A DNA stretch of 32,414 nucleotides from a virus: IMG/VR virus record IMGVR_UViG_3300014501_001242, positions 1 to 32,414 of that record. One strand, 5' to 3'. The notes under the pieces were generated by a model. The model had not been told where the DNA came from. It worked only from the letters and a program-made list of their open reading frames with translations, and made no database searches. The position numbers were made by a program, and so were the translations under genes. Below, piece by piece: positions 1 through 30,677 of this stretch (position 1 is its first letter; the number at the start of each line of letters is the position of its first letter).

Positions 1-905
1 TTGTCCCGTCGCTCCGCTGTAGCCAGAGTAGCCAGAATAACCAGAGTAGCCAGAGACGCCGCTGAAGCCAGAATAGCCAGAGACACCGCTTCCGCTGTAT
101 CCGCTGAAGCCAGAGTAGCCGCTTATGCCAGAATGGCCAGAGTAGCCGCTGAAGCCAGAAGGGCCAGAATAGCCAGAGAAACCGCTGAAGCCAGAGTAGC
201 CGCTTGTCGATGCTCCGCTAACGCCAGAGTAGCCGCTGTACCCTGAGTAGCCAGAGTAGCCGTTGATGCCGCTATGACCGCTGAAGCCAGAGTAGCCGCT
301 TATGCCACTGAAGCCAGAGTAGCCAGAGACACCGCTGAAGCCAGATACACCGCTGAAGCCAGAGTAGCCAGAGTAGCCAGAGTAGCCGCTGTAGCCGCTT
401 CTACCACTGAAGCCAGAGTAGCCAGAGTAACCGCTGAAGCCAGAGACGCCAGAGTAGCCGCTGAAGCCAGAGTATCCGCTTATACCGCTAACGCCAGAGT
501 AGCCAGAGTAGCCGCTGAAGCCAGATACGCCGCTGTAGCCTGAGTAGCCAGAGTAGCCGCTGTAGCCGCTATGCCCGCTGAAGCCAGAGTAGCCACTTGC
601 GCCAGAGTAGCCAGAGTAGCCAGAGTATCCGCTGAGGCCAGAGTAGCCTGAGTAGCCAGAGTAGCCGCTGTTTCCGCTATGACCGCTGAAGCCAGAGTAG
701 CCAGAGTAGCCGCTGTAGCCAGAGACGCCGCTGAAGCCAGAATAGCCAGAGTAGCCAGATACACCGCTGTAGCCAGAGTAGCCAGAGAAGCCGCTGTACC
801 CGCTTTTGCCGCTGAAGCCAGAGTAGCCAGAGACGCCGCTGAAGCCAGATATACCGCTAATTCCGCTGACGCCAACTCCGCCTGCTGCTGGAATCGGAAC
901 GAATT
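1..905 (-). repeat. 9-bp tandem repeat tract coding for the fibre triplets
   Basis: Nine-base units of the type GGC-TAC-TCT or GGC-TTC-AGC (coding sense) run tandemly through the fibre gene. Phe codons are nearly always followed by AGC, whereas Tyr codons are followed by either TCT or AGC, which gives an irregular 18- to 27-base higher order. Such tracts are prone to slippage and recombination and could change fibre length in steps of three residues. The frame never breaks in the 304 codons seen. Confidence 0.85.
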
Positions 906-912
906 GACCCAT
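1..912 (-). CDS. Gly-X-Ser (collagen-like) triplet-repeat tail fibre, C-terminus outside window
   Basis: The minus strand is open from an ATG at 912 to the window edge, 304 codons with no stop. After a start MGQFVPIPAAGGVG the protein is almost only Gly-X-Ser triplets, about 100 of them, X being mostly Tyr or Phe and sometimes Val, Ile, His, Asn, Lys or Arg. At about 204-215 the Gly spacing breaks once (GASTSG), and at the edge the repeat changes to GYSGATGQ, so a different segment begins outside the window. Collagen-like repeats are common in phage tail fibres. This one lacks Pro and is rich in aromatics, so a true collagen triple helix is not assured; a polyglycine-II or low-complexity fold is possible. 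It is the last visible gene of the late operon, behind a terminator and the glycan-modifying cassette. Fibre role is inferred; the reading frame is certain. Confidence 0.85.
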   Translation of the reverse strand, partial: MGQFVPIPAAGGVGVSGISGISGFSGVSGYSGFSGKSGYSGFSGYSGYSGVSGYSGYSGFSGVSGYSGYSGYSGFSGHSGNSGYSGYSGYSGLSGYSGYSGYSGASGYSGFSGHSGYSGYSGYSGYSGVSGFSGYSGYSGVSGISGYSGFSGYSGVSGFSGYSGYSGFSGRSGYSGYSGYSGYSGFSGVSGFSGVSGYSGFSGISGYSGFSGHSGINGYSGYSGYSGYSGVSGASTSGYSGFSGFSGYSGPSGFSGYSGHSGISGYSGFSGYSGSGVSGYSGFSGVSGYSGYSGYSGYSGATGQ

Positions 913-916
913 AGTT

Positions 917-957
917 TCCTATTGAAAAATTAACCTATATGGCTACTTTCAATAGGA
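917..957 (-). promoter_or_regulatory. Inverted repeat over the fibre gene ribosome binding site
   Basis: Perfect 11-bp arms TCCTATTGAAA (917-927) and TTTCAATAGGA (947-957) are separated by 19 bases. In the fibre mRNA the proximal arm contains the AGGA that serves as Shine-Dalgarno, five bases from the ATG at 912. A closed hairpin would hide the ribosome site. It could also be a dyad for a DNA-binding protein. The arms are seen directly; function is inferred. Confidence 0.6.
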
Positions 958-974
958 GACTGTCGGTATCCTTC

Positions 975-1010
975 AAAAGAAAAAGCCCCTACGGATAACC
1001 GTAAGGGCTT
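975..1010 (-). terminator. Rho-independent terminator downstream of the coiled-coil gene
   Basis: On the minus strand the stem (arms 983-994 and 999-1010, one G-U pair, 4-base loop) is followed by TTTCTTTT. It lies just after the stop of the gene at 1042-1581, so the fibre gene downstream needs its own promoter or read-through. Confidence 0.8.
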
Positions 1011-1041
1011 ATGAGACTATTAAATACTGTCGCTCTTATCG

Positions 1042-1581
1042 CTACTTAGCCCAACTATACGCGGTCGATATCCCCTTGCCGTGTCTCGTTACCTTGCCCT
1101 CATTGACAAGCGTAACAAGAGCCGGCGTTACCGGGCTTCCGTTGGTAGCATAGACCTGCAATTCCTTCGATGGTATTGGCCCTTCTGACTTCCGCTTTTT
1201 AAGTTCCGCGTAGATAGCGTCACCATCTGCTAGAATCTTTTTCGCATCTTCGGCTAACTGTTCCGCCGTGCGTCTGATCCTTTTGCCGCCAGAAGTCTTA
1301 GTAGGCTTCGCCGCTTCTGGCTTCCGACCTTCCGCCTTGGCAAGAAAGGCTTCGATACGCACTATCTCGGCAACCGCCGCGTTTCTTTGCTCGTAGGCTT
1401 TGGCGAGTTTCGCGACGTGCGGAGCAAAGAACTTCGCCTTGAGTTTCGCCTTGAGTTCCTCTTGCTCTTCCTGATATTTCGCAAACAGTTGCTCATCATC
1501 CGCGAGAAGCGACTCCTCTACAATAGCACTCGCGACAATAGCACTCGCGATTTCAGCTGAAGCCAGATTCTTCTTAGCCAT
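1042..1581 (-). CDS. Hypothetical protein, coiled coil plus winged-helix-like C-terminus
   Basis: A 179-residue protein. The N-terminus is Ala/Glu rich with a perfect 15-bp tandem duplication at 1520-1549 giving ASAIVASAIV. Residues of about 30-80 are charged and helical (likely coiled coil). A basic segment (SGGKRIRRT) follows. The last 60 residues read like a winged helix, with a probable wing LVNEGKVTRHGKG. It sits between the sulfotransferase and the fibre, closing the late transcript before a terminator. Possible roles are a fibre chaperone or a DNA-binding regulator; I do not recognise the family. Codon use matches its neighbours. The reading frame is convincing, the function is not known. 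Confidence 0.75.
   Translation of the reverse strand: MAKKNLASAEIASAIVASAIVEESLLADDEQLFAKYQEEQEELKAKLKAKFFAPHVAKLAKAYEQRNAAVAEIVRIEAFLAKAEGRKPEAAKPTKTSGGKRIRRTAEQLAEDAKKILADGDAIYAELKKRKSEGPIPSKELQVYATNGSPVTPALVTLVNEGKVTRHGKGISTAYSWAK
1520..1549 (-). repeat. Perfect 15-bp tandem duplication inside the coiled-coil gene
   Basis: ACAATAGCACTCGCG occurs twice head to tail (1520-1534 and 1535-1549), adding five residues in frame. Confidence 0.9.
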
Positions 1582-1659
1582 AACGCAACTCGATTCTGCC
1601 CGGTTAGGGCGGTAAGGTTTTCGTGTCTTACCTCAATAGCGGTTATCGTGTCAAGCTCA

Positions 1660-2274
1660 TTATGGAAGCGGATAGCCAAATAGCATGTAGTCGCGTCTGT
1701 AAAGCCTGCTAGCCGCTGCACAAACGAACGGCGTATAATAGTCGCGTCTTTCCCCGATCTTAGCCGATTCGTTGATCCTAGGCAGTTCTAGCCCTATCCC
1801 TAGCCCTTTGGCAATCGTTTGCCAATCGGCGGCTATCCTTTCGTGCCTCGCAACAAAATCGACGGCTTCCGGATTGCTCAAGAAATGAGACTGCGGCAAC
1901 CAACCCGGCTGCTTCAACGCCGTAGGATCGGCCAGCAGCAAGCGTAAGCAGTCGTCAAGGCTCTTACCCTTGACGAGCTCGTAATCGCAATGCCTGTCGC
2001 CATGTATTCCATCTGGCGACGGATTTAGATTGTCGTGGTAATACGATTTGTCCATCTGCGAAAATTCATAAGTAGAAATCAACCGCTCGATAGGATCGCG
2101 GACAACCGCGAACTTATAGTATGTATCCCATTCAACCCCATAGGTAGCCTTTGTTTGCTCCAAGGTCCAGTGCGCATGGTTCATACTAAGCAAACGCTTG
2201 ATAGAGGTTCCGGCGTTCTTAGGGATATGAATAAAGATTGCCTTGAGTTGATGATTGATATTGGTAGTAGACAT
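1660..2274 (-). CDS. Sulfotransferase (Sulfotransfer_2-like)
   Basis: A 204-residue enzyme expected to move a sulfuryl group from PAPS to a glycan hydroxyl or a tyrosine. The 5'-phosphosulfate loop HIPKNAGTSI (residues 16-25) and the 3'-phosphate-binding segment VVRDPIERLISTY (57-69) are both present and intact. These are the two diagnostic motifs of the Golgi-type carbohydrate sulfotransferase family. The length is short but adequate for a single catalytic domain. The start overlaps the upstream stop as TAATG, so it is translationally coupled to the methyltransferase fusion. No signal peptide, so it acts in the host cytoplasm on virion protein or nucleotide-linked precursors. Family assignment is firm; the acceptor is unknown, and the adjacent Tyr/Ser-rich fibre is an attractive candidate. 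Confidence 0.85.
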   Translation of the reverse strand: MSTTNINHQLKAIFIHIPKNAGTSIKRLLSMNHAHWTLEQTKATYGVEWDTYYKFAVVRDPIERLISTYEFSQMDKSYYHDNLNPSPDGIHGDRHCDYELVKGKSLDDCLRLLLADPTALKQPGWLPQSHFLSNPEAVDFVARHERIAADWQTIAKGLGIGLELPRINESAKIGERRDYYTPFVCAAASRLYRRDYMLFGYPLP

Positions 2275-3746
2275 TATTTAGCCCCAAAGATAACTATATG
2301 GTGGTCCTCTTTATCGCCGCTATCCAATACAGAAGTATCTAGCAAATCAAAGCGGCTAACCCCGCGTTGGCTTTGCAGTACGTTCGGGCAGACAAATACT
2401 TTCGTAGGCTGCCAATACTCTCGCAAGATATGCCATACAACCGGATCGCCATTATCCAAGCAACGCCGACCTATTACGCATAACTTGCTAGTCATCTTGC
2501 TGAACTCTGCTACGATACCTTTTAGTTCTTCCGCGCCAATATGTTGCAACACCAACGAACATATAATAGCGTCGTAGGTCTCTGCCCGTAGATGCTCCCA
2601 CGAACTTACTAAAGATAAACGCCCCCGACGTATCTCCGATTGTAAACCAAACTTCTTGTAGCCTCTTTCGAGCATAATCGGCGTATCATACGCCGTTACT
2701 TGCCAGTTGGGAGATAGGCTCAATAGGCCGGCTGTATTGCGGAGCATACCGCAACCAAAGTCTACTATCTTAAGCGGCAACGCTGTATCTAATTCAAATT
2801 GCTTAAGCGTTACAATATCCGGGGCAAAGTCTTCCGGCTTTGTATTGGTTAACTGACGGTGCATCAAATGCGTATCAGTAGCAGAGTTATCAATAATCCA
2901 ATCAGATTGCAAACCTTTTAACTCGCCTATGGTAATAGTTGGTTCTACTATTGGCTTCGGTATCTCTATTTTGCAATGCTCAAAAACTAACTCTCTTATT
3001 TCCTTTGCTTGGAGCGGCCACTTGAACCACCTATTTATGCCAGTATGAGCAATGCCATAATAGCCGTCGCGGTATTCTATCTCGGTACGCTCGGCTATTG
3101 CGGCGTTTATTCGGTCTTCCTGCACCAACTCTATAACAGGCACGTTAAACAGCGAAGCCCATACGCGATGGAAGGATAAGCCGGCAACAACACAAGCGGC
3201 ATGTTTTGCAAGCCAAGCAGTTTCGGGCAGCGTCGTTTTGCCAGTTAGATTTATATTGCTAGGTATTACATTTGAGTCTGTCCACGGTCTATCTTCGCGT
3301 TGCTCATCGCGTCCTACTTTGATAATTGGCAAGCCGGTTGAATGGAGCAACTTAAAAATCTCTGTATCATTTAAGCAACGCTCTAACTCTCCGCCTGATA
3401 CTTCGCTAAAGAGAATATAACGCTTAGGTATTGCTACCAATGGTTGTCGAGTGGGAACGGATAGAGGCTGTATCTCGGTAGGTTCTTTAAGGTCTATTGC
3501 GTGCGTCCATCCATCTACATACTCTCTTGTTCTTTGCGGCAAGCCTAGAGCGTCAAAGAGTTCTATAGCCGCCGGATTGCCGCCATCTCTTACGATAGCA
3601 ATTTCTTCGATAGTACCATTAAGATAACCGTGTACCATTCTGGCTAATGCAATAGAAACAGGGTTAGGCTTAATGTAGTTTAACAGGCTAAACTGATTAG
3701 CAAGTATATCGCCTAACCCGGCTTTGATATTTGTATATACTCTCAT
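2274..3746 (-). CDS. GT-B glycosyltransferase-like domain fused to SAM methyltransferase
   Basis: A 490-residue bifunctional protein. The N-terminal half resembles GT9-type GT-B folds: GLGDIL at residues 10-14, then TGKTTLPETAWLAKHAACVV (168-187) followed by SFHRVWASLFNVPVIEL, the usual nucleotide-sugar side with the conserved acidic/His motif weakly kept. The C-terminal third is a class I SAM-dependent methyltransferase with motif I VDFGCG (328-333), an acidic end to beta 2 (TAYD) and YDAIICSLVLQHI as motif IV region. The start overlaps the previous stop as ATGA. It probably adds a sugar and methylates it, or methylates a product of its neighbours. Domain calls are by motif only; substrate unknown. 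Confidence 0.75.
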   Translation of the reverse strand: MRVYTNIKAGLGDILANQFSLLNYIKPNPVSIALARMVHGYLNGTIEEIAIVRDGGNPAAIELFDALGLPQRTREYVDGWTHAIDLKEPTEIQPLSVPTRQPLVAIPKRYILFSEVSGGELERCLNDTEIFKLLHSTGLPIIKVGRDEQREDRPWTDSNVIPSNINLTGKTTLPETAWLAKHAACVVAGLSFHRVWASLFNVPVIELVQEDRINAAIAERTEIEYRDGYYGIAHTGINRWFKWPLQAKEIRELVFEHCKIEIPKPIVEPTITIGELKGLQSDWIIDNSATDTHLMHRQLTNTKPEDFAPDIVTLKQFELDTALPLKIVDFGCGMLRNTAGLLSLSPNWQVTAYDTPIMLERGYKKFGLQSEIRRGRLSLVSSWEHLRAETYDAIICSLVLQHIGAEELKGIVAEFSKMTSKLCVIGRRCLDNGDPVVWHILREYWQPTKVFVCPNVLQSQRGVSRFDLLDTSVLDSGDKEDHHIVIFGAK

Positions 3747-4489
3747 AGTAACTTCCTAAAGCCTTCGCGATATTCTTCTAGAGATCGTTTATTAGCCTCA
3801 TAAAACTCGGTATACCAATAGGGGTTTATACCTTCTCGAAGTTCGGGATGCTCCACTAACCTAAGTAGTAATTCGGATGCTTGCATTGCTTTACGATGGT
3901 TCCTGCCGGGTAGGGCCAGATTACTATAATGGTAAATCTCTAACGCTGATTTATTAGCAACCGTTGATAGATTCTGGCCGCTCGGTAGAAAAAGCTCTTC
4001 GTGAAGTAAACCCTTCCAATGGATACCGATATTGTTTTTGAAAAGCCGTATTTGTGGATCGGCTACGAACTCTGATTCCTGTTTAATTTGCAATAGGTTA
4101 TCGAGCGTCCAATGGGGTTTAGCCGCTGTAACCATTGTAAGCCGTCGAAAACTTACAGCGGTTTCCGCTCCGCTTATTGCGGCTTCAATATCGTGCCTGC
4201 TGGCCTCTAGGATTTCATCGGCGTCTAACCAGAGTATCCAGTCGCCGGTGGCATATTTAACAAGTTGATTACGTAACGCTGCAAAGCCTTCTCTGTAAAT
4301 TATATCGTTGGCAACTGTAACAATATGTAATGGGACACCTAAGTATAGTAAATCTAACCATTCCTTACAACCGTCGCCGGAAGTATCTACCCCTACTATG
4401 ACCTCATCGGCTAGGTCTAAAATGTTAGAAAACCAATAAGGCATATAGTTCAACTCATTATGAAACTGTACCATTATAGATAATTTCAT
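3743..4489 (-). CDS. Family 2 glycosyltransferase
   Basis: A 248-residue GT-A enzyme. It has the N-terminal strand MKLSIMVQFHNE, DEVIVGVDTSGDG (28-40) and the metal-binding DxD in WLDADE (88-92), with a later HWKGLLHEEL segment typical of the SPO53/WcaA-type branch of GT2. No transmembrane helix, so it is cytoplasmic. The start is coupled (TAATG) to the upstream GT fusion and its stop overlaps the next start (ATGA). It most likely adds one residue from a nucleotide sugar to the glycan built by the cassette. Family confident, donor and acceptor unknown. Confidence 0.85.
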   Translation of the reverse strand: MKLSIMVQFHNELNYMPYWFSNILDLADEVIVGVDTSGDGCKEWLDLLYLGVPLHIVTVANDIIYREGFAALRNQLVKYATGDWILWLDADEILEASRHDIEAAISGAETAVSFRRLTMVTAAKPHWTLDNLLQIKQESEFVADPQIRLFKNNIGIHWKGLLHEELFLPSGQNLSTVANKSALEIYHYSNLALPGRNHRKAMQASELLLRLVEHPELREGINPYWYTEFYEANKRSLEEYREGFRKLL

Positions 4490-6510
4490 TACGCCGCTTT
4501 CTTTCTCTTACAACCACAACCGCTTTCTTTAGGAGCAACTGCCGCAACTGTTGCTATGGGCTTCGCTGCTCTACCGGGGATATGAAAGAGTTTATCAATA
4601 GCGGCCACAATAGCCATAGCGTTGCTGCTATCTGAATACGTCAGTCTCTCTATCCAATGGCTGCGCCGCGCAGATTGCCCCCACGTATCTGTATCATCTG
4701 GATCTCTAACTAATGCTATAGTCGGTACTCTATTGGCATTGGTTAGATGCAACGTTGAGGTATCTATCGAGATAACCAAACAGGCACGATCATAAAGCCC
4801 CATAAGGTCTATAATCCGCTTCGCTTTGACAAACGCTAAATCCAATATCTGAAAATAATCACCAAACTCTTTAGCCAATGTCTGCCTTAAACCGTCGCCA
4901 AACTTGTAAGGGCTAGAGTTGCCGATTGTATTTAGCAGTATCAAAGGTCTATCGCCTTCTATATATTTATCTATTAAGGCTTGCTCGGCTACAGAGTTTC
5001 TATTATCTAACTCTAAAGGTAGAACGTCGTAGAGGTCTATAGGTACACCGCTACGTATCCAAATGTCGGTAGACCAACTGCCGCTAACTCTAGGGTCTTT
5101 AACGTAGCCTACTTGAGCTAGTCGCGGTACTCCGCCAGACTCGGCAAGTAACATAGCCTTCTTATATTCTTGAGCCTTGCCTTTGAACGGTATTACGTTC
5201 AACCATTCGTGCCCGCTCGCAATCGAAGCGTACTTCTCATTGACCACCAATGAAACTGTTTTATCTCGCGCCAAATATTTCAATGCGGGCAATAGGACAA
5301 GAATATCTCCGGCGGCTTCTATCTGTACAACCGCAACAAACTTGCCGCGTATTTGTCGTAGGTCTTCTAGGGCTTTCCAACAAAAGGATTCTAGTGGTAT
5401 CAAGTCGTTACGCTTATCGCCGACTTGGCCAGTAGAGTTGAAATACTCTGATCCTATCGTGCCTGCCAAATGAAACTTACTGACGCTTCTATGAACAAAT
5501 AACGGTTGCCCCTTGAAATCGTGTTGTATCATACAAGGCAAAGCCGGGAAGCCTACCCACCGCTTTGACGGTTGCGAGTAGTCTGTACCTAGCAATCTAT
5601 GCGCAAGATGGAATGTTTCCTTATCTCCATGAACAACTCCGAAAGTATAATCTTGATGCTCGCATAGCAGTAGGGCGGTATGCAGCTCTCTATGGTTTCT
5701 ATCTTTGTCAACGTATATCTCGCCGGATTCAAAGCCGGGTTCGTCTTTATATTCTAATCCAAACGCTGCCCATTGTTCGGGCCTGAGGTCATAGCCGGCG
5801 TCATCGGGGAAATAGATTGCTCCTTTCGCCTTGTATTCGTCGCTGTCAAATAGAGATAGGAAATCAGAGCGGCAAGGGTAAGCGTCGGCATCAAGATATA
5901 GACAATCTTTCCAATTCTCGTTATAGCCATAACCGCTATGCAAGATTGCGTAGGGCTTCAGCGTCCAAGGGTGGCGGATAACAGCCGGATACTCTTTCAG
6001 TACATCTTCAGCGTTGACAATCTTGACCTCAAGACCTTCAAGGGCTTTAAGATGCCAGTTGTAAACTTCAGCAGCGTTGAGCGCCCAAAGTTCTATTTTG
6101 CCCTCATAGCCCAAATGCCGCAAAACTCTGATCGTAATATATGCCGAGTCAAAGTATCTGCCCATTCCCACGATACAGACGCCAGAGCCTTCGTAGGTCG
6201 GTTTAGAGGGCAGTAGAGCGATTGCTTCCCGAAATAGGGCAATATACCGCCCTTTGCGGTTCCGCTTCTTGTTGCCTAAGGGTTGCTCAAACATCTTGAG
6301 CGGACAGACTCCGCTCTTGGCGGCAGTAACGCAATCTCTGCCATCTATCGTGCATACCGCGTATTGCCCCTGCTTTGGATCGGTTCTAAAATCGCAACGA
6401 CTACAATGGGCAAAGCAAGTATCATAGCATTCTGGCCGCTCTGGCGATGGTTGAACGTCAAAGGGCTTATGGGCTTTGATCTTATCTAATGCAAATTGCG
6501 GTAATTTCAT
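4489..6510 (-). CDS. Two-domain glycosyltransferase: GT71-like mannosyltransferase plus GT9-like domain
   Basis: The protein has 673 residues from the ATG at 6510, which overlaps the previous stop as ATGA; a TTG at 6519 is less likely. Residues 28-70 are Cys-rich (about seven Cys, zinc-binding-like). Residues of about 105-350 resemble the MNN1/GT71 alpha-mannosyltransferase family: LYLDADAYP (DxD at 206-210), GAIYFPDD, ESGEIYVDK and HGDKETF in family order. Residues of about 385-640 look like GT9 (heptosyltransferase): AAGDILVLLPALKYL and SIDTSTLHLTNANRVPTIAL. It ends with a Cys/Lys tail, SGCGCKRKKAA. GT71 enzymes are best known from fungi, so a phage fusion is unusual. It begins the cassette next to distal tail genes, which suggests virion glycosylation. 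Confidence 0.8.
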   Translation of the reverse strand: MKLPQFALDKIKAHKPFDVQPSPERPECYDTCFAHCSRCDFRTDPKQGQYAVCTIDGRDCVTAAKSGVCPLKMFEQPLGNKKRNRKGRYIALFREAIALLPSKPTYEGSGVCIVGMGRYFDSAYITIRVLRHLGYEGKIELWALNAAEVYNWHLKALEGLEVKIVNAEDVLKEYPAVIRHPWTLKPYAILHSGYGYNENWKDCLYLDADAYPCRSDFLSLFDSDEYKAKGAIYFPDDAGYDLRPEQWAAFGLEYKDEPGFESGEIYVDKDRNHRELHTALLLCEHQDYTFGVVHGDKETFHLAHRLLGTDYSQPSKRWVGFPALPCMIQHDFKGQPLFVHRSVSKFHLAGTIGSEYFNSTGQVGDKRNDLIPLESFCWKALEDLRQIRGKFVAVVQIEAAGDILVLLPALKYLARDKTVSLVVNEKYASIASGHEWLNVIPFKGKAQEYKKAMLLAESGGVPRLAQVGYVKDPRVSGSWSTDIWIRSGVPIDLYDVLPLELDNRNSVAEQALIDKYIEGDRPLILLNTIGNSSPYKFGDGLRQTLAKEFGDYFQILDLAFVKAKRIIDLMGLYDRACLVISIDTSTLHLTNANRVPTIALVRDPDDTDTWGQSARRSHWIERLTYSDSSNAMAIVAAIDKLFHIPGRAAKPIATVAAVAPKESGCGCKRKKAA

Positions 6511-7331
6511 GGCGTACAATCAACAGAAGTATCTATCGTAACATGCCCGCCAAACGGAGTACCCGGCGGTGGGCAAGGAATTGTAGGAAAAAAATACTGG
6601 CCACAACCACCGGGGTTTTTATCAGTAGTATATTCGTAGCCAGTTAGCGGGTCATAAGTTGCCGTGTAGTATTCGTAGTAGGTTTGCTCATTGTCTAATA
6701 CCAACGTTCCGTCGCAAGGAACATACTGATACGTCGAATAGTCGCCGTATGTACCGGCTTCCGTTCCATCCGCATAAAAGATAATTGTATCCAAGCCAGT
6801 AGCGAGGTCTAATCGAGAACACGGATAACCATCTGTATCATCCGTAAAACAGGCGTAGATAGTTGGTAAGCCGCCATAGCCGGGTATCCAATTCAGTTCG
6901 AGCGTTATCTGTAATTGAACTATTTTAGTTAGCGGGCAATCGGTTAAGTCGGAGGAATAGTTTGGACAGATACAAACGGTATTCATCAATGGGCCGCCCC
7001 ATATATCCATCTCGGCAGTTACTGTCGCCTGCCACGTACAAGTACCCTCTACTTGCTGTAAACAGAAAGTACCATTGATAGGAGCGTTGACATAAACCCA
7101 ACTGTGGGAACTGCTATTGCCAGCTTCAAGGATTATCGACCAAAGGCATTGCGTTGGTACTACTACGTCAACGAAAGTTACTTGAATAGTAGAGGGATAC
7201 GTTTGCGATTTATCGGTAGAGCAATAGCAAGTGCCGCAACAAGGGGCTTCGCAACCTACTGTCCAAATTGCCCCGGTAGTTTCGTCTCGGTTTAACGCTC
7301 CGGTTATTGGATCGCGTAATAGAATAGCCAC
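6507..7331 (-). CDS. Cys-rich distal tail protein
   Basis: A 274-residue protein with 17 cysteines, five of them clustered at residues 27-37 (GCEAPCCGTCYC). It is otherwise beta-rich with many Thr/Tyr/Gly. It has no signal peptide or transmembrane helix. Its position after two tail proteins and before the glycan cassette makes it a likely tail-tip component. Cysteine density suggests disulfide cross-links outside the cell or bound metal. Not recognised as a named family. Confidence 0.7.
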   Translation of the reverse strand: MAILLRDPITGALNRDETTGAIWTVGCEAPCCGTCYCSTDKSQTYPSTIQVTFVDVVVPTQCLWSIILEAGNSSSHSWVYVNAPINGTFCLQQVEGTCTWQATVTAEMDIWGGPLMNTVCICPNYSSDLTDCPLTKIVQLQITLELNWIPGYGGLPTIYACFTDDTDGYPCSRLDLATGLDTIIFYADGTEAGTYGDYSTYQYVPCDGTLVLDNEQTYYEYYTATYDPLTGYEYTTDKNPGGCGQYFFPTIPCPPPGTPFGGHVTIDTSVDCTP

Positions 7332-7838: not shown

Positions 7839-8647
7839 AGGAGTGTTGATCCTGCTATACCTAATACGCTAAAGTCGCCAGAATTGTAGATATAATTATT
7901 TCCGTTGATGGTGTTAACTAATTCGAAGTCGCCAGTCGCTTTGTTAAACTGTTGTCGTTGGTCTACCGGGCTACCGAGTAGCCGATGGGTTATTTCGAAT
8001 ACTTTGCCAGCTAAGGTAAACTTTTCATCTATATCCCATCCAAGGTAGAGTAAATGACCTGCTGGCCAAGTATGCCCGCCAGTACCTACTACATTAAACG
8101 GAGCGGCGTTCACGGTATTTTGAATCGCGGCGTAAGCGTCCTCATTGACCAAAGGTTGAAAATGCAAGGTGACTTCTATATCGCTCATAGGAAGAAAGAC
8201 AGGGGTTATATCTTGGATTGTATCGCCAGAAGTATATTGTAAAGTATTACCGGGTATGATAATTGTCTGAGCGGATGCTTTAACATGTACTTCCTTAAAG
8301 TCGGTAGGATCGAAAGAGAAGTTTTTATAGCCTATCTCGATATGAGCAAAGGGCCAGCTGCGATAGCCGAGAGGCGGGCCGCTCGGCTTCATATTAAAAG
8401 TCTCGGCGAACATCCAAGCAACGTCCGGATGCTGTTGATTCTTAAAAGCCCCCATAAGGTCATAGCGGTCTTGCCAATCGCAACGTACTATTAGGGTAGC
8501 CCCTATACCTAAAGTATCCGGACTCCAATCGTAACTCTCTACGCCACTATCCTTATTAAGTTCGTTATACCAAACTTGCGGGCCACCATTGGTTTGTATA
8601 CTTTGTTGATAGAAGTATGTAGGATCGTTTTTACTTACTTGTGCCAT
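7835..8647 (-). CDS. Distal tail protein following the tape measure
   Basis: The protein has 270 residues from the ATG at 8647, which overlaps the tape-measure stop as TAATG and has GAGGGCGG upstream as ribosome site. An ATG at 8665 exists but lies inside the previous gene. It is soluble and beta-rich. In siphophages the genes directly after the tape measure encode the distal tail hub, which fits, but I see no diagnostic Dit motif. The name is by position. Confidence 0.65.
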   Translation of the reverse strand: MAQVSKNDPTYFYQQSIQTNGGPQVWYNELNKDSGVESYDWSPDTLGIGATLIVRCDWQDRYDLMGAFKNQQHPDVAWMFAETFNMKPSGPPLGYRSWPFAHIEIGYKNFSFDPTDFKEVHVKASAQTIIIPGNTLQYTSGDTIQDITPVFLPMSDIEVTLHFQPLVNEDAYAAIQNTVNAAPFNVVGTGGHTWPAGHLLYLGWDIDEKFTLAGKVFEITHRLLGSPVDQRQQFNKATGDFELVNTINGNNYIYNSGDFSVLGIAGSTLL

Positions 8648-10623
8648 TATGCCGCCCTCGCCCATCCGGGATTAGATGCCATCTTGCCGGTATTAGCCGC
8701 TATGCCTTGTAAGATCGGCGTCTGTTTCTGATTTTCCACTAACGCCGCTTTTGCAACGTCTATCTGACTATTCATATCGCCGCTACCACCCATCATCCGC
8801 ATAGCCGCCATTCGCTTAAATGTCTCGCCAATATCTTCCATCTTCATATCGCCAGTAGCAACGCCACGATTAGGTCTTAGATTGCCCTTACCGCCTTTAT
8901 TGGCTTCGTCTTTGGCTTTCGCCTTGAGGTCATCCGCCTCTTTCTGTATACCGTCCAGCAACTTCTGAATACCGTCCAAGCCTACTCCGCTCTTAATCTT
9001 GTCGTAGAGTTTCTTAATGTCATCCGTCAGTTTCGGCATAGCATCTATCTTTGCCATACCGTCTTTCAGGTTCTTCTGTCTGGCTAACTCGGCATCTGCT
9101 AAATCCTTGTTGGCTTGCTTGTCATTTGCCGCTCGGTTGTCTTGACGCTTCTTTTGGCTCTCATCGCGGGCCTCTCCGAAACTACTCTTGATAGATGCAC
9201 TGTTTTTATTGTAGTCGCTGTCGATAGCGGCTTGATCTAATCCGTATTGTTTATTTATGCCAGCGTCACGGGTTGCTCGTTCTTTCTTCTTATAGTCTTT
9301 TGTAAATTGCGTTTCTTCACCGGCAAAGGCATCGGCTATCATATCGCCTAGCGATGTAGTCATTGCCGACCAACTTGACACAAACCAATTCATAAACTCT
9401 TTAGCGGCAGTCTTAAGCGTATTCCATGCCAGATTCATTCCCTCGAAAGCATCCCACCACGCAGTAGAGATTCCTTCCGCCAGATATTCCCAACCATCCA
9501 AGAGATAGTTTTTAAGGTTGACCCAGCCCTCTAGGAGATACGATCCCATCTGATCGTATAGAATCTCCACGCCAGTCGTAAACCCCTTCCACGAGCCTAA
9601 TAGATGGTCTAGGAACGACGCCATTTGCATAAAGCCGTCAATAGTCTTATCTACCGCTGTCTTTCCAACACCGATGAAATAAGCGAATGCGGTAGCCATT
9701 GCGCCAATGCCAAGTATGACTAGCCCAAAGGGCGCGAGCATTGCCGCGCCCATAACTTCGCCAAGAGCAATAACGGCTTCAATTATGCCGCCGATTGTCG
9801 CGATTATGATCTTGCCAAAGGCGACGAACTCGGGAGCAAGGCCAATGACGCCGGCGATTGCCGCTCCTATTGCTACCCATTTTACAATCGATTTAGTCTG
9901 CACGGGGGTTAATTGCTCTATCTTGATTGCAAGGGCTTCAAACCATTTAGCCGCTTCTTTAAGATACGGCAATAGATGCTTGCCGAACTGCTCGGCTACT
10001 TCCCCTAACTCATGCCAGAGTTCGGATAATGCCTTTGAGGTACTATCTACGTCCTCTTCCTGCTGAAAGCCTTCTAGGCCGGCTCGTTGTACCAGAGACA
10101 GTTGAGCGTAAGCGTTGGTTGTATATCTTAGTTGCGGTATAAGTTTTTGCAGCTCGCGAAAGTTGCCGTTTGTGGCTAACGCCGCTGCTCTCATCCCCTC
10201 TCGCAATTCGCCGCCAAAGAACTTTTTGGCAAGTCCAATTCCGACTTCAGTAACTAACTTCATCTGATCGGCTTGAACGCCGAGTTGAGCGGCATAGGTA
10301 ATACCTTGCTCAACGGCATCCTTGCTGTAGCGAGTTATCATCTGTAGCGATTTAGCGTACTCTTCCAGCTCAGTGGCGGCTTTATCGTCGTGTAGAGCGG
10401 TCTTCATTTCTTCGAAAGCATCAGATGCTTCCATTGCCTTTGTAGCAACGAATACCGCTGCTCCAGCAATAGATAGAAACGCGGCTTTACCGATAGTCGC
10501 TATCTTTGACCATTTGAGCTCGAAGTCTTTAAGGGATTCGCCGATCTTGCTTATAGATTCGAATAGAGCGGTGTCGTGCGCCCCAAACTCCACAAAGGCT
10601 TCCGCTAATGCAAAATCGCTCAT
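8647..10623 (-). CDS. Tail tape measure protein
   Basis: A 658-residue protein that sets tail length and is ejected with DNA. Residues 40-220 match the tail-length tape-measure domain: helical, KAMEASDAFEEMKTAL, then a helical bundle. Two hydrophobic Gly/Ala segments at about 245-320 (AIGAAIAGVIGLAPEF and GEVMGAAMLAPFGLVI) follow. The C-terminal 200 residues are charged coiled coil, Lys/Asp/Ala rich. At about 0.15 nm per residue the tail would be near 100 nm. Its ATG overlaps the TGA of the frameshifted chaperone, the classical arrangement. Siphovirus type is supported by the absence of sheath genes. Confidence 0.93.
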   Translation of the reverse strand: MSDFALAEAFVEFGAHDTALFESISKIGESLKDFELKWSKIATIGKAAFLSIAGAAVFVATKAMEASDAFEEMKTALHDDKAATELEEYAKSLQMITRYSKDAVEQGITYAAQLGVQADQMKLVTEVGIGLAKKFFGGELREGMRAAALATNGNFRELQKLIPQLRYTTNAYAQLSLVQRAGLEGFQQEEDVDSTSKALSELWHELGEVAEQFGKHLLPYLKEAAKWFEALAIKIEQLTPVQTKSIVKWVAIGAAIAGVIGLAPEFVAFGKIIIATIGGIIEAVIALGEVMGAAMLAPFGLVILGIGAMATAFAYFIGVGKTAVDKTIDGFMQMASFLDHLLGSWKGFTTGVEILYDQMGSYLLEGWVNLKNYLLDGWEYLAEGISTAWWDAFEGMNLAWNTLKTAAKEFMNWFVSSWSAMTTSLGDMIADAFAGEETQFTKDYKKKERATRDAGINKQYGLDQAAIDSDYNKNSASIKSSFGEARDESQKKRQDNRAANDKQANKDLADAELARQKNLKDGMAKIDAMPKLTDDIKKLYDKIKSGVGLDGIQKLLDGIQKEADDLKAKAKDEANKGGKGNLRPNRGVATGDMKMEDIGETFKRMAAMRMMGGSGDMNSQIDVAKAALVENQKQTPILQGIAANTGKMASNPGWARAA

Positions 10624-16218: not shown

Positions 16219-16360
16219 TCTGCCCCTTCTTGTTCTTATTCTTGTACTTTGCTTTAGCGACCTTCTGCCAGTAGGTTAGTTTATTATCCTTAATCCACTT
16301 CAAGCCATTACGCGCGGATACTTGCATAGCCTCAAAATAGTTAGTAGGTTTATTGCTCAT
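16202..16360 (-). CDS. Small basic protein between endonuclease and protease
   Basis: A 52-residue protein starting MSNKPTNYFEAMQVSARNGL with a Lys/Asn-rich tail. The ATG at 16360 has a GAGGA upstream and overlaps the endonuclease stop by 11 bases; an upstream start at 16390 lies inside the endonuclease gene. It may have been split from an original neighbour by insertion of the endonuclease. Function unknown. Confidence 0.55.
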   Translation of the reverse strand: MSNKPTNYFEAMQVSARNGLKWIKDNKLTYWQKVAKAKYKNKNKKGQNVNSN

Positions 16361-17078
16361 CGCTGTTATCCTCGCTATCGCTATTATCACGGGCCTCTAT
16401 GGCTTCCGCTAACGTATTGAAATATCCTAAGAACTTACGTACCCCATTAACCGGCTTAACTACGGAATACCTTCCGCCCGATTGTTTAACGTACCGTTCG
16501 CCGGTACTACTTTGTATAGTTGGTTTAGCGGTTAATGTTCCGAAGGCGAGTTGATACTTAACCTCTGCTCTACGCTTTTCGGCTTCTTCATAAGTTGTAA
16601 ACGTGCCAAAACTTCGTTGCTTACCATTAACTTTGAAATGTACGTTATAGTTGTTACCTATTTTTCGGATATTGATAGAAGCCTTATTATGACTATTCTG
16701 GGCGTAGGTCGCTATGCGGAGATTGCATCGGCGATTATCTAACTTGTCGCCATTTATATGATCTATAACCATGCCAGTAGGTGGCTTCATGATATAGCGA
16801 TGTAGAAAAACCATCTTACGATCTTTCCCTTTTCCCATGCCGCGTATGTAACCAGTTATGTTTCTAGTCCAACTTATATCTCTTAAACGAGAAATGTCGC
16901 CCTCATCAATCTTGACTTCCGTAATATCAATAAGGTTCCCGCCTATCCATCTATTAGATAAGAAGTCATCAATCGAAGTAATATCTTCGTTGATAGTAGC
17001 CCGATTGTCATTGATCCCGATAATAAGTAATCTCCATTCCCCGCTAACTTTTAAATAGTAATTCTGATAAACTCTCAT
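16350..17078 (-). CDS. HNH homing endonuclease with two AP2-like DNA-binding repeats
   Basis: A 242-residue protein. The HNH core is intact: FLHRYIMKPP (91-100), VIDHINGDKLDNRRCNLR (104-121). Two AP2-like DNA-binding modules follow at about residues 136-170 (GTFTTYEEAEKRRAE) and 200-231 (LGYFNTLAEAIEARD). This is the free-standing HNH-AP2 homing endonuclease architecture. It is inserted in the head operon between portal and protease, a common place for such selfish genes. A good TGGAG site precedes its ATG. Active centre residues look complete. Confidence 0.9.
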   Translation of the reverse strand: MRVYQNYYLKVSGEWRLLIIGINDNRATINEDITSIDDFLSNRWIGGNLIDITEVKIDEGDISRLRDISWTRNITGYIRGMGKGKDRKMVFLHRYIMKPPTGMVIDHINGDKLDNRRCNLRIATYAQNSHNKASINIRKIGNNYNVHFKVNGKQRSFGTFTTYEEAEKRRAEVKYQLAFGTLTAKPTIQSSTGERYVKQSGGRYSVVKPVNGVRKFLGYFNTLAEAIEARDNSDSEDNSDEQ

Positions 17079-27120: not shown

Positions 27121-27333
27121 TCAAATGTCCACGAACTCGTCTGCCTGCTTCTCATCTGCTGACGCTGCTATGGCCTTGCATTGGCATCCTATCTCTATCA
27201 AGATTCGTGCCTGCTCAAAGGTCGCTAGGGCTACGATCCAATAGGGGAAGCCCATTCGATGGAGCGAACGTCTCTGGCGTTTGGTTGCCCATTCCCCGCC
27301 GCCCCAAGCCTCTAGGTCTACCAGCTCAGCCAC
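27121..27333 (-). CDS. Small hypothetical protein
   Basis: A 70-residue protein with a GTG start at 27333, overlapping the upstream stop by eight bases. N-terminus acidic, then a basic WATKRQRRSLHRMGFPYWIV. Reading frame, coupling and codon use support it. Function unknown; early gene before the initiator. Confidence 0.6.
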   Translation of the reverse strand: MAELVDLEAWGGGEWATKRQRRSLHRMGFPYWIVALATFEQARILIEIGCQCKAIAASADEKQADEFVDI

Positions 27334-27901
27334 GACCCGCTCTTATGCCGTCTAAGCCATTTATAGTTAGGATCGCGTCTCTGATCTTTATGGCTTCCGC
27401 CAGCGTCTTGGCGGATTTGGTAAACATCTTACCAGCGACCTTGACGGCAACGTTGTAAGTGCCGCATTTGTTTTTATAGATATTACGGTAGCCGCATGAC
27501 TTGTTCGGGTTATCTCCCGGCCTAGATGGAATAGGTAGGAGATTTGACCAACTCCCATAACGGGGTCTATGCAATAGTTCCGTCTGCGAGACTTCCATTA
27601 GATTACTCTTTCTACAATCGTTATATTGGTTATTCTTGAATGTTATTTTGTTTCCGCGCTTAGTAGGCCCGTAGATAATTTGCTGTAGTAGCACAGTAAT
27701 CTTCTTATTGCCTTGCCAGCGGCTAGAGCCTATATAGCGTAGTCCTCTGCCTTCTACAATTCGCCAATAGCGATAAGGGCTTATCTTGTTAAAATCTTCG
27801 GCATCGATTAGGGCTTTGATAGTTTCTCCGTCTCGGCGGTTGATGTAGACAGTAATTATTTTGCCGTCTTTTGTGGTCTTGTTCTGTATCGATTGTTCCA
27901 T
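27326..27901 (-). CDS. Degenerate HNH-AP2 protein
   Basis: A 191-residue protein with the HNH-AP2 layout. The HNH framework is kept (ITVLLQQIIYG, then NQYNDCRKSNLMEVS at 91-105), but the catalytic histidines are lost: the LHR motif is LQQ (Q73) and the usual DH pair is TF (87-88). The AP2-like C-terminal module is intact (about 136-182, CGYRNIYKNKCGTYNVAVKV). It looks like a former homing endonuclease kept as a DNA-binding protein. ATG overlaps a second ATG (GAATGGAAC). Regulation of the early region is possible. Confidence 0.75.
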   Translation of the reverse strand: MEQSIQNKTTKDGKIITVYINRRDGETIKALIDAEDFNKISPYRYWRIVEGRGLRYIGSSRWQGNKKITVLLQQIIYGPTKRGNKITFKNNQYNDCRKSNLMEVSQTELLHRPRYGSWSNLLPIPSRPGDNPNKSCGYRNIYKNKCGTYNVAVKVAGKMFTKSAKTLAEAIKIRDAILTINGLDGIRAGRG

Positions 27902-29415: not shown

Positions 29416-29793
29416 TTATCCAGTTGGCGTACTGGACAACTTAAACAGGGGACGTGCGGCATTAGGACGCCGCTCTACCGTGCCTGCCGCTACTAATTGC
29501 TTAAGGGCGGCTAACGCTGTAGGAGCGTCTATGCCGGCCTTAGCCGCAATACCACCGCTATCGCGATGATATTGGAACTCTGTAGTCATTACGGCTAGGA
29601 TAGCCGCTTTGGTATCCGCCATATTTGGCGACATAATTGCTCGCACGCGCTCGGCTACATCTGGCTTAGGAGCGGCTACCTTTGGGGCTTCTACTCTTTC
29701 CCCGAACTTCACCAACTCGCTCTGCGTCCATTGCAGCAACTCCGTTAGTTGCTGTCTGTACAACTCTCTCGTTTTGTTGACTTCGCTTAGCAT
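29416..29793 (-). CDS. Winged-helix-like protein with helical N-terminus
   Basis: The protein has 125 residues from the ATG at 29793 (MLSEVNKTRELYRQQLTELL), which overlaps the Dam stop and has GAAAGG before it; a start at 29823 is less likely. C-terminal 65 residues form a wHTH (ADTKAAILAVMTTEFQYH, then a recognition helix with APTALAALKQLVAAGTVERR). N-terminal helix likely dimerises. Probably a transcription regulator. Not assigned to a family. Confidence 0.7.
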   Translation of the reverse strand: MLSEVNKTRELYRQQLTELLQWTQSELVKFGERVEAPKVAAPKPDVAERVRAIMSPNMADTKAAILAVMTTEFQYHRDSGGIAAKAGIDAPTALAALKQLVAAGTVERRPNAARPLFKLSSTPTG

Positions 29794-30677
29794 ACTACTA
29801 CCTTTCTTTGTAGGGCGTCCCATCCTTGAGGGTTAATCCAAATACACTCTTCGCGGTACTTTATACCTTTGTTTTGCGTCCATTGGGCAGCAGCAGAGAT
29901 TAGCGGTATATGTACGCTATACCAACTGCTTAAGTAATCTCTATAGAGCGTATTAGGTATATTGTACTTAAAGTTAAAGTCATAGCCAGATAAAACTACA
30001 TAGCCCTTTAGTTGTAGTAGCATCTTAAGCATTTGCTCATGTTGTTCATCTGTAAGTTCGGGATCATAAGCCGATGTTCCGCTGCTCCGCATATCTTTAT
30101 TATATGGCGGATCATTGTAATGTAGCGTAGTAGGCGAATCATATTTAGTTAGCAAACTACTGAAGCATTGATTGCTAATGACTACATCCCTCATACGTTG
30201 GCTATAGAGCGGTATCTTTTCTATCTTACTATGATAAGCGGCTATCTTTTGCCTTTTATGTTCTCCGTTTACTATCCCGCAACAGGGGTTTACTGTACGG
30301 AATGTTTCGCCATTGTAAGATAGCCGCTGTCGTACATAGAACATAGCCGCTGACTCGATAGGATCATCGTACTCTGTATTGACAGTTGCGTAGAACGCTT
30401 CCGTCGTTGGGACTATCTGCCGCAATCGAGACTGTAATTGCAACGGATTACTTTTTACTATCCGCCAAAAGTTAGCAGCGAGCGGATTTATTTCGTTGTA
30501 GATTTCTACTTCTGATCTTGGTCTAGCCAGCGTACAGACTCCACTGCCGCCGAACACGTCTACCCAAGTCGTATGCGGGGGCAGATAGGGTCTGATACGC
30601 GGCCAGTATTTTGACTTTGCTCCGTACCAACGGAGCGGGCTACTGCTGACGTTTGCCTGTTTTTGCCCGAAATTCAT
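29787..30677 (-). CDS. D12-class adenine-N6 DNA methyltransferase (Dam-like)
   Basis: A 296-residue enzyme. Motif X LRWYGAK (15-21), motif I FGGSG (42-46), catalytic NDPPY (188-192). Order matches the Dam/D12 alpha class that methylates adenine in DNA. No partner restriction enzyme is near, so it is an orphan methylase: protection from host restriction or control of replication and packaging. AGAGGA lies close to the ATG. Recognition site unknown. Confidence 0.9.
   Translation of the reverse strand: MNFGQKQANVSSSPLRWYGAKSKYWPRIRPYLPPHTTWVDVFGGSGVCTLARPRSEVEIYNEINPLAANFWRIVKSNPLQLQSRLRQIVPTTEAFYATVNTEYDDPIESAAMFYVRQRLSYNGETFRTVNPCCGIVNGEHKRQKIAAYHSKIEKIPLYSQRMRDVVISNQCFSSLLTKYDSPTTLHYNDPPYNKDMRSSGTSAYDPELTDEQHEQMLKMLLQLKGYVVLSGYDFNFKYNIPNTLYRDYLSSWYSVHIPLISAAAQWTQNKGIKYREECIWINPQGWDALQRKVVVC

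Follow-up and report, generated by a model that had tools for sequence, protein, structure and literature searches.

The window analysed here is the whole of IMG/VR virus record IMGVR_UViG_3300014501_001242 (32,414 bp), which near one end carries four codirectional minus-strand genes for glycosyltransferases, a methyltransferase and a sulfotransferase, close to the gene of a collagen-like Gly-X-Ser fibre. We favour, with confidence that is evenly balanced, the reading that these four genes are a phage decoration cassette for the virion and that their most probable target there is the Gly-X-Ser fibre, which would receive an O-glycan, methylated and sulfated. Glycosylation of the virion is likely, and the fibre is a moderately likely target. 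The features on which the argument turns are as follows.

1..912, minus strand: 5' part of a collagen-like Gly-X-Ser fibre gene, 304 codons, running off the contig (95 triplets; PF01391, 1.2e-43).
983..1010, minus strand: terminator-like hairpin between cassette and fibre (12-bp stem; -21.8 kcal/mol; z -4.2).
1042..1581, minus strand: 179-amino-acid (aa) protein between cassette and fibre, with no significant Pfam or PHROGs match.
1660..2274, minus strand: Sulfotransfer_2 sulfotransferase, 204 aa (PF03567, 1.5e-15; phrog_3347, 1.4e-16), with motifs for 3'-phosphoadenosine 5'-phosphosulfate (PAPS); model pLDDT 91.9.
2274..3746, minus strand: unassigned N-terminal domain plus an S-adenosylmethionine (SAM)-dependent methyltransferase, 490 aa (Methyltransf_25, 2.6e-6, residues 327-418).
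3743..4489, minus strand: GT2 glycosyltransferase with a DAD motif, 248 aa (PF00535, 3e-10; PF13704, 2.7e-7; phrog_13126, 6.7e-10).
4489..6510, minus strand: GT71-like domain with a DAD motif plus a GT9-like domain, 673 aa (PF11051, 8.6e-14; TIGR02193, 5.7e-7, residues 570-619).
6507..7331, minus strand: distal tail-region gene, ATGA-coupled to the cassette and downstream of the tape measure gene, with no family match in Pfam or PHROGs.

Comparable fibres were sought with a degenerate pattern of three Gly-X-Ser triplets with an aromatic X, which yielded 120 viral stretches, 100 of them with a real Gly-X-Ser open reading frame (ORF). The same pattern was mostly a chance match in cellular genomes, where a run-rich Gly-X-Ser frame was seen in 19 of 118 loci against those 100 of 120 in viruses. 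We searched 50 fibre-pattern records, of which 41 counted as real Gly-X-Ser records (at least 15 matches to a looser pattern) and 9 had few matches, and compared them with 50 random viral records picked by an arbitrary 14-mer. The results showed a GT2 match in 32 of the 41 real Gly-X-Ser records versus 9 of the 50 random records (Fisher p = 1e-8); among records up to 80 kb the counts were 24/33 versus 5/44 (p = 4e-8), and 1 of the 9 records with few fibre-pattern matches had GT2. In the fibre records, most GT2 genes were found near the fibre, in the same orientation.

Apart from the fibres themselves, the largest gene cluster comprised 117 ORFs at 43 loci and held methyltransferase, GT2 and GT9-like genes. 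All but one of these ORFs (116/117) shared the strand of the nearest fibre, adjacent members overlapped in 65 of 71 pairs (taken as stop-to-stop frames), and 92 of the 117 stood at most three genes from the fibre, compared with 257 of 497 other ORFs (p = 8e-8). Profiles of the three families matched 44 of 100 fibre loci with at least one family, and 28 loci with all three; the cassette GT2 proteins formed 12 clusters at 50% identity. Multi-domain GT2/methyltransferase/GT17 proteins were also present in other fibre phages, several of them adjoining the fibre. Glycosyltransferase and methyltransferase cassettes are therefore generally co-located with such fibres, which argues for fibre decoration in the window as well. 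The first-pass annotation had proposed an O-glycan on the fibre that is methylated and sulfated; the GT2 enrichment and the recurring methyltransferases back glycosylation and methylation, while sulfation rests on one genome. If true, this tight link would make a widespread class of phage fibre a glycoprotein and would change how its host binding and stability are studied. A literature search with limited coverage of subscription journals found no paper describing the link.

Three further observations concern the fibre loci. A gene for a 2-oxoglutarate (2OG)-Fe(II) oxygenase, recalling collagen hydroxylases, stood near the Gly-X-Ser fibre and formed a cluster found in five loci (L181:5684-6835 and four others). 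A conserved family of roughly 160-aa proteins with no Pfam match was represented in 23 fibre loci (e.g. L183:6295-6789), often immediately before the fibre gene. In a 494-kb virus record, a single 2,500-aa frame (L446:6128-13627) carried several GT2, GT17 and methyltransferase domains, the Gly-X-Ser fibre lying elsewhere in that phage.

The arrangement also occurs in a cultured phage. In Methylophilaceae phage P19250A (KX815270), gp23 is a 223-triplet Gly-X-Ser collagen-like fibre and is directly followed by gp24-26, a methyltransferase, a GT2 and a GT9-like protein. P19250A thus resembles the window in having a Gly-X-Ser fibre adjoining codirectional methyltransferase, GT2 and GT9-like genes, but its cassette lies downstream of the fibre, and its enzymes have no detectable homology to those of the window; tblastn with the window sulfotransferase did not retrieve it. 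The presence of fibre and cassette together in P19250A supports fibre decoration and makes the link between fibre and glycosylation directly testable. In the current record, gp23 (KX815270 21390-24995; L438:7759-11364) is annotated as a tail length tape-measure protein and gp24-gp26 as hypothetical, and gp22 matches 23 ORFs of the 160-aa family described above.

Within the window, the four genes (6510-4489, 4489-3743, 3746-2274 and 2274-1660) are joined by TAATG/ATGA junctions, so the coupled set that the first-pass annotation had described at 1660-6510 was borne out on the minus strand, as were the DxD, GT9-like, SAM and PAPS motifs. We also found that tail gene 7331-6507 overlaps the first cassette gene by ATGA, a junction missing from that annotation. 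The annotation had counted two glycosyltransferase fusions. One stands, the GT71-like/GT9-like fusion of gene 6510-4489, whose match to the GT9-type heptosyltransferase I family TIGR02193 (5.7e-7) is below the curated cut-off of that family. The second is only putative: the first 269 aa encoded by gene 3746-2274 matched no glycosyltransferase family in Pfam up to E 0.01, comparison of this gene with the GT9-like family gave E 0.48, and its single-sequence fold was unusable (pLDDT 32).

The cassette proteins contain no likely membrane segment (19-residue hydropathy peaks at 1.88, where the GT9-like domain begins), and no flippase, polymerase, PAPS or sugar-nucleotide gene was recognised in the window, so host donors would be used. 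Converting cassettes of the gtrABC type have membrane or flippase-type components, unlike this one. These properties bear on an unlikely alternative, in which the enzymes alter a host surface polymer of the lipopolysaccharide (LPS), capsule or teichoic type in the infected or lysogenic cell, giving superinfection exclusion or serotype conversion, and the site beside the fibre is a convenient insertion point in a variable host-interaction region. A tyrosine integrase is present, so the phage is possibly temperate; the GT9-like domain is similar to LPS heptosyltransferase I; and viral relatives of the sulfotransferase have polysaccharide-type neighbours (GT1, GT10, GDP-mannose dehydratase) but no Gly-X-Ser fibres. 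The missing membrane, flippase and polymerase components speak for fibre decoration instead, as do the ATGA coupling to a tail gene within the structural module and the enrichment of GT2 at Gly-X-Ser fibres across many phages.

The same coupling can be read in another way, namely that the cassette decorates a different virion protein (the major tail protein, the capsid or the Thr/Tyr-rich product of tail gene 7331-6507) and that the fibre is a bystander, since it is with gene 7331-6507 that the start of the cassette is coupled, whereas a terminator-like hairpin precedes the fibre. Known phage precedent is of this kind: mycobacteriophage virions carry glycans on capsid and tail tube (Freeman et al. 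2023, as described in PMC12619734). These phages are alike in bearing glycans on structural proteins, and differ in that the glycans sit at the C-termini of capsid and tail tube rather than on a collagen-like fibre; the description in PMC12619734 does not mention sulfation. We consider a bystander fibre distinctly improbable, because the comparative link is with the fibre itself, which offers 92 equivalent Ser sites. For fibre decoration, the mycobacteriophage glycans remain a precedent, and so does Mimivirus L230, a virus-encoded enzyme that glucosylates viral collagen (PMC4691112). L230 differs in being a bifunctional lysyl hydroxylase/glucosyltransferase of a eukaryotic virus that acts on hydroxylysine, whereas the window fibre offers Ser and Tyr.

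We then consider the fibre as an acceptor. The visible part has 95 triplets with two short breaks, where about 100 triplets had been given earlier; the contig end cuts the gene, so that the tip and the full length lie outside the window. The composition with X mostly Tyr or Phe was upheld. Serine, earlier placed in every triplet, is third in 92 of the 95, and X in these 92 Gly-X-Ser triplets is Tyr in 46, Phe in 19 and Val in 11. Both TCT (47) and AGC (38) serve as Ser codons, and a single substitution does not convert one into the other; this suggests that Ser is kept by selection at the protein level. With 1 Pro in the 95 triplets, it is uncertain whether the unmodified fibre would form a triple helix. 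Collagen is known to be stabilised by glycosylation of Thr (Bann et al. 2000, cited in PMC3368898), and for a non-glycosylated prophage collagen, stability was suggested to come from its many prolines (PMC3368898). Across the fibre loci, Pro or Ser content did not clearly separate those with a cassette from those without.

On the favoured reading, an O-linked glycan would be attached to fibre Ser, or to Tyr at X, and extended by soluble glycosyltransferases in the cytoplasm; the methyltransferase domain would cap one of its sugars, and host PAPS would supply the sulfate that the sulfotransferase transfers. Because the fibre is almost without proline, glycans on third-position Ser may help to hold the triple helix or hydrate the rod, besides altering the fibre surface. 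Gene content, intact cofactor motifs, the coupling to a tail gene and the co-location of such cassettes with fibres are observed, whereas we infer acceptor, linkage, order of steps, sulfation of the fibre glycan and stabilisation. A wider version is possible but doubtful: that Gly-X-Ser phages routinely O-glycosylate and methylate a Pro-poor fibre through adjoining cassettes, the glycan replacing proline, and that the window phage also sulfates it to give a polyanionic, glycosaminoglycan-like fibre.

Several results weigh against decoration of the fibre. The modification is predicted here from genes alone, and the comparison fibre loci are metagenomic fragments that are partly related and not fully independent. 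The window enzymes gave no significant profile or phmmer match to the common methyltransferase/GT2/GT9-like cassette; no homology between the two was detected, so the link is one of analogy. They share functional classes, codirectionality and proximity to a Gly-X-Ser fibre, in the window across a probable terminator, and since the enzymes are not detectably related, the window cassette would be a convergent version of the fibre-associated one. The cassette had been described as adjoining the fibre; it is indeed codirectional and near, but the 179-aa gene 1581-1042 and the hairpin at 1010-983, followed by a T-rich tail TTTCTTTT, intervene, and fibre and cassette are probably on separate transcripts.

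The distribution of sulfotransferases is a further point on that side. Conserved co-occurrence of Sulfotransfer_2 with triplet-repeat fibres, which the first-pass annotation had put forward as a check, did not appear: Sulfotransfer_2 was found in 0 of 50 fibre records by a search that recovered 5 of 5 positive controls, and none of 78 viral Sulfotransfer_2 loci had, within 10 kb (less at contig ends), a Gly-X-Ser run or any other long run of Gly triplets. Sulfotransfer_3 was not enriched in fibre records either (3/40, against 3/50 random records), and a general linkage between sulfotransferases and fibres was rejected on these counts. Sulfation of the fibre is thus a plausible inference from gene order in one genome. 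If the fibre is sulfated, it would to our knowledge be the first phage virion component with a sulfated glycan.

The enzyme itself scored 58.5 bits against PF03567 (curated cut-off 22) over profile positions 3-252 of 252, and its PAPS loops, IHIPKNAGTS (5'-phosphosulfate binding, 5'-PSB) and RxPxxRxxS/RDPxxRxxS (3'-phosphate binding, 3'-PB), showed little or no variation across 30 aligned viral sequences. The best PDB match of the model was a heparan sulfate 6-O-sulfotransferase (weak, E 1.3e-3), which is only suggestive of a carbohydrate as the sulfate acceptor. Direct sulfation of the fibre-repeat tyrosines, independent of the glycan enzymes, would suit the 46 Tyr-containing triplets. We regard it as very improbable, given that the Sulfotransfer_2 family and the fold match point to mostly carbohydrate-active enzymes, and that Tyr at X is equally common (38%) in other such fibres, where Sulfotransfer_2 was not found.

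Among phrog_3347/Sulfotransfer_2 proteins of uncultured phages, which are of the same family as the window enzyme, one shares 36% identity with it; they differ from it in lacking a Gly-X-Ser fibre near any of the 78 loci. In 14 sampled loci of viral relatives, the neighbours included 2OG oxygenases, glycosyltransferases, FkbM methyltransferases and nucleotide-sugar enzymes. What phage sulfotransferases do has been termed unclear (PMC10580990). In two phages a Sulfotransfer_3 gene and a Gly-X-Ser fibre lay on one strand, about 5-8 kb apart (L481:17544-18365; L482:5006-5863), and one viral contig (L022, from a 167-kb virus record) held six Sulfotransfer_2-like genes in about 13 kb.

The remainder of the window encodes an HK97-type capsid protein (TIGR01554, 1.8e-35), portal, terminase, prohead protease, the tyrosine integrase and the tape measure protein, the structural genes lying with the cassette on the minus strand.

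8647..10623, minus strand: tape measure protein (phrog_1272, 3.3e-12).

Close viral-contig relatives were sought for the capsid protein, tail protein 8665-7835 and the GT71-GT9 and methyltransferase-fusion genes, and none was found, nor was a second copy of the window's own cassette in the viral contigs searched. Between portal and protease, within the structural module, stands an HNH_3 endonuclease gene (16350-17078); the protein at 27326-27901 looks related to its product by eye only. The gene at 29787-30677 encodes a D12-class adenine DNA methyltransferase (PF02086, 1.2e-17).

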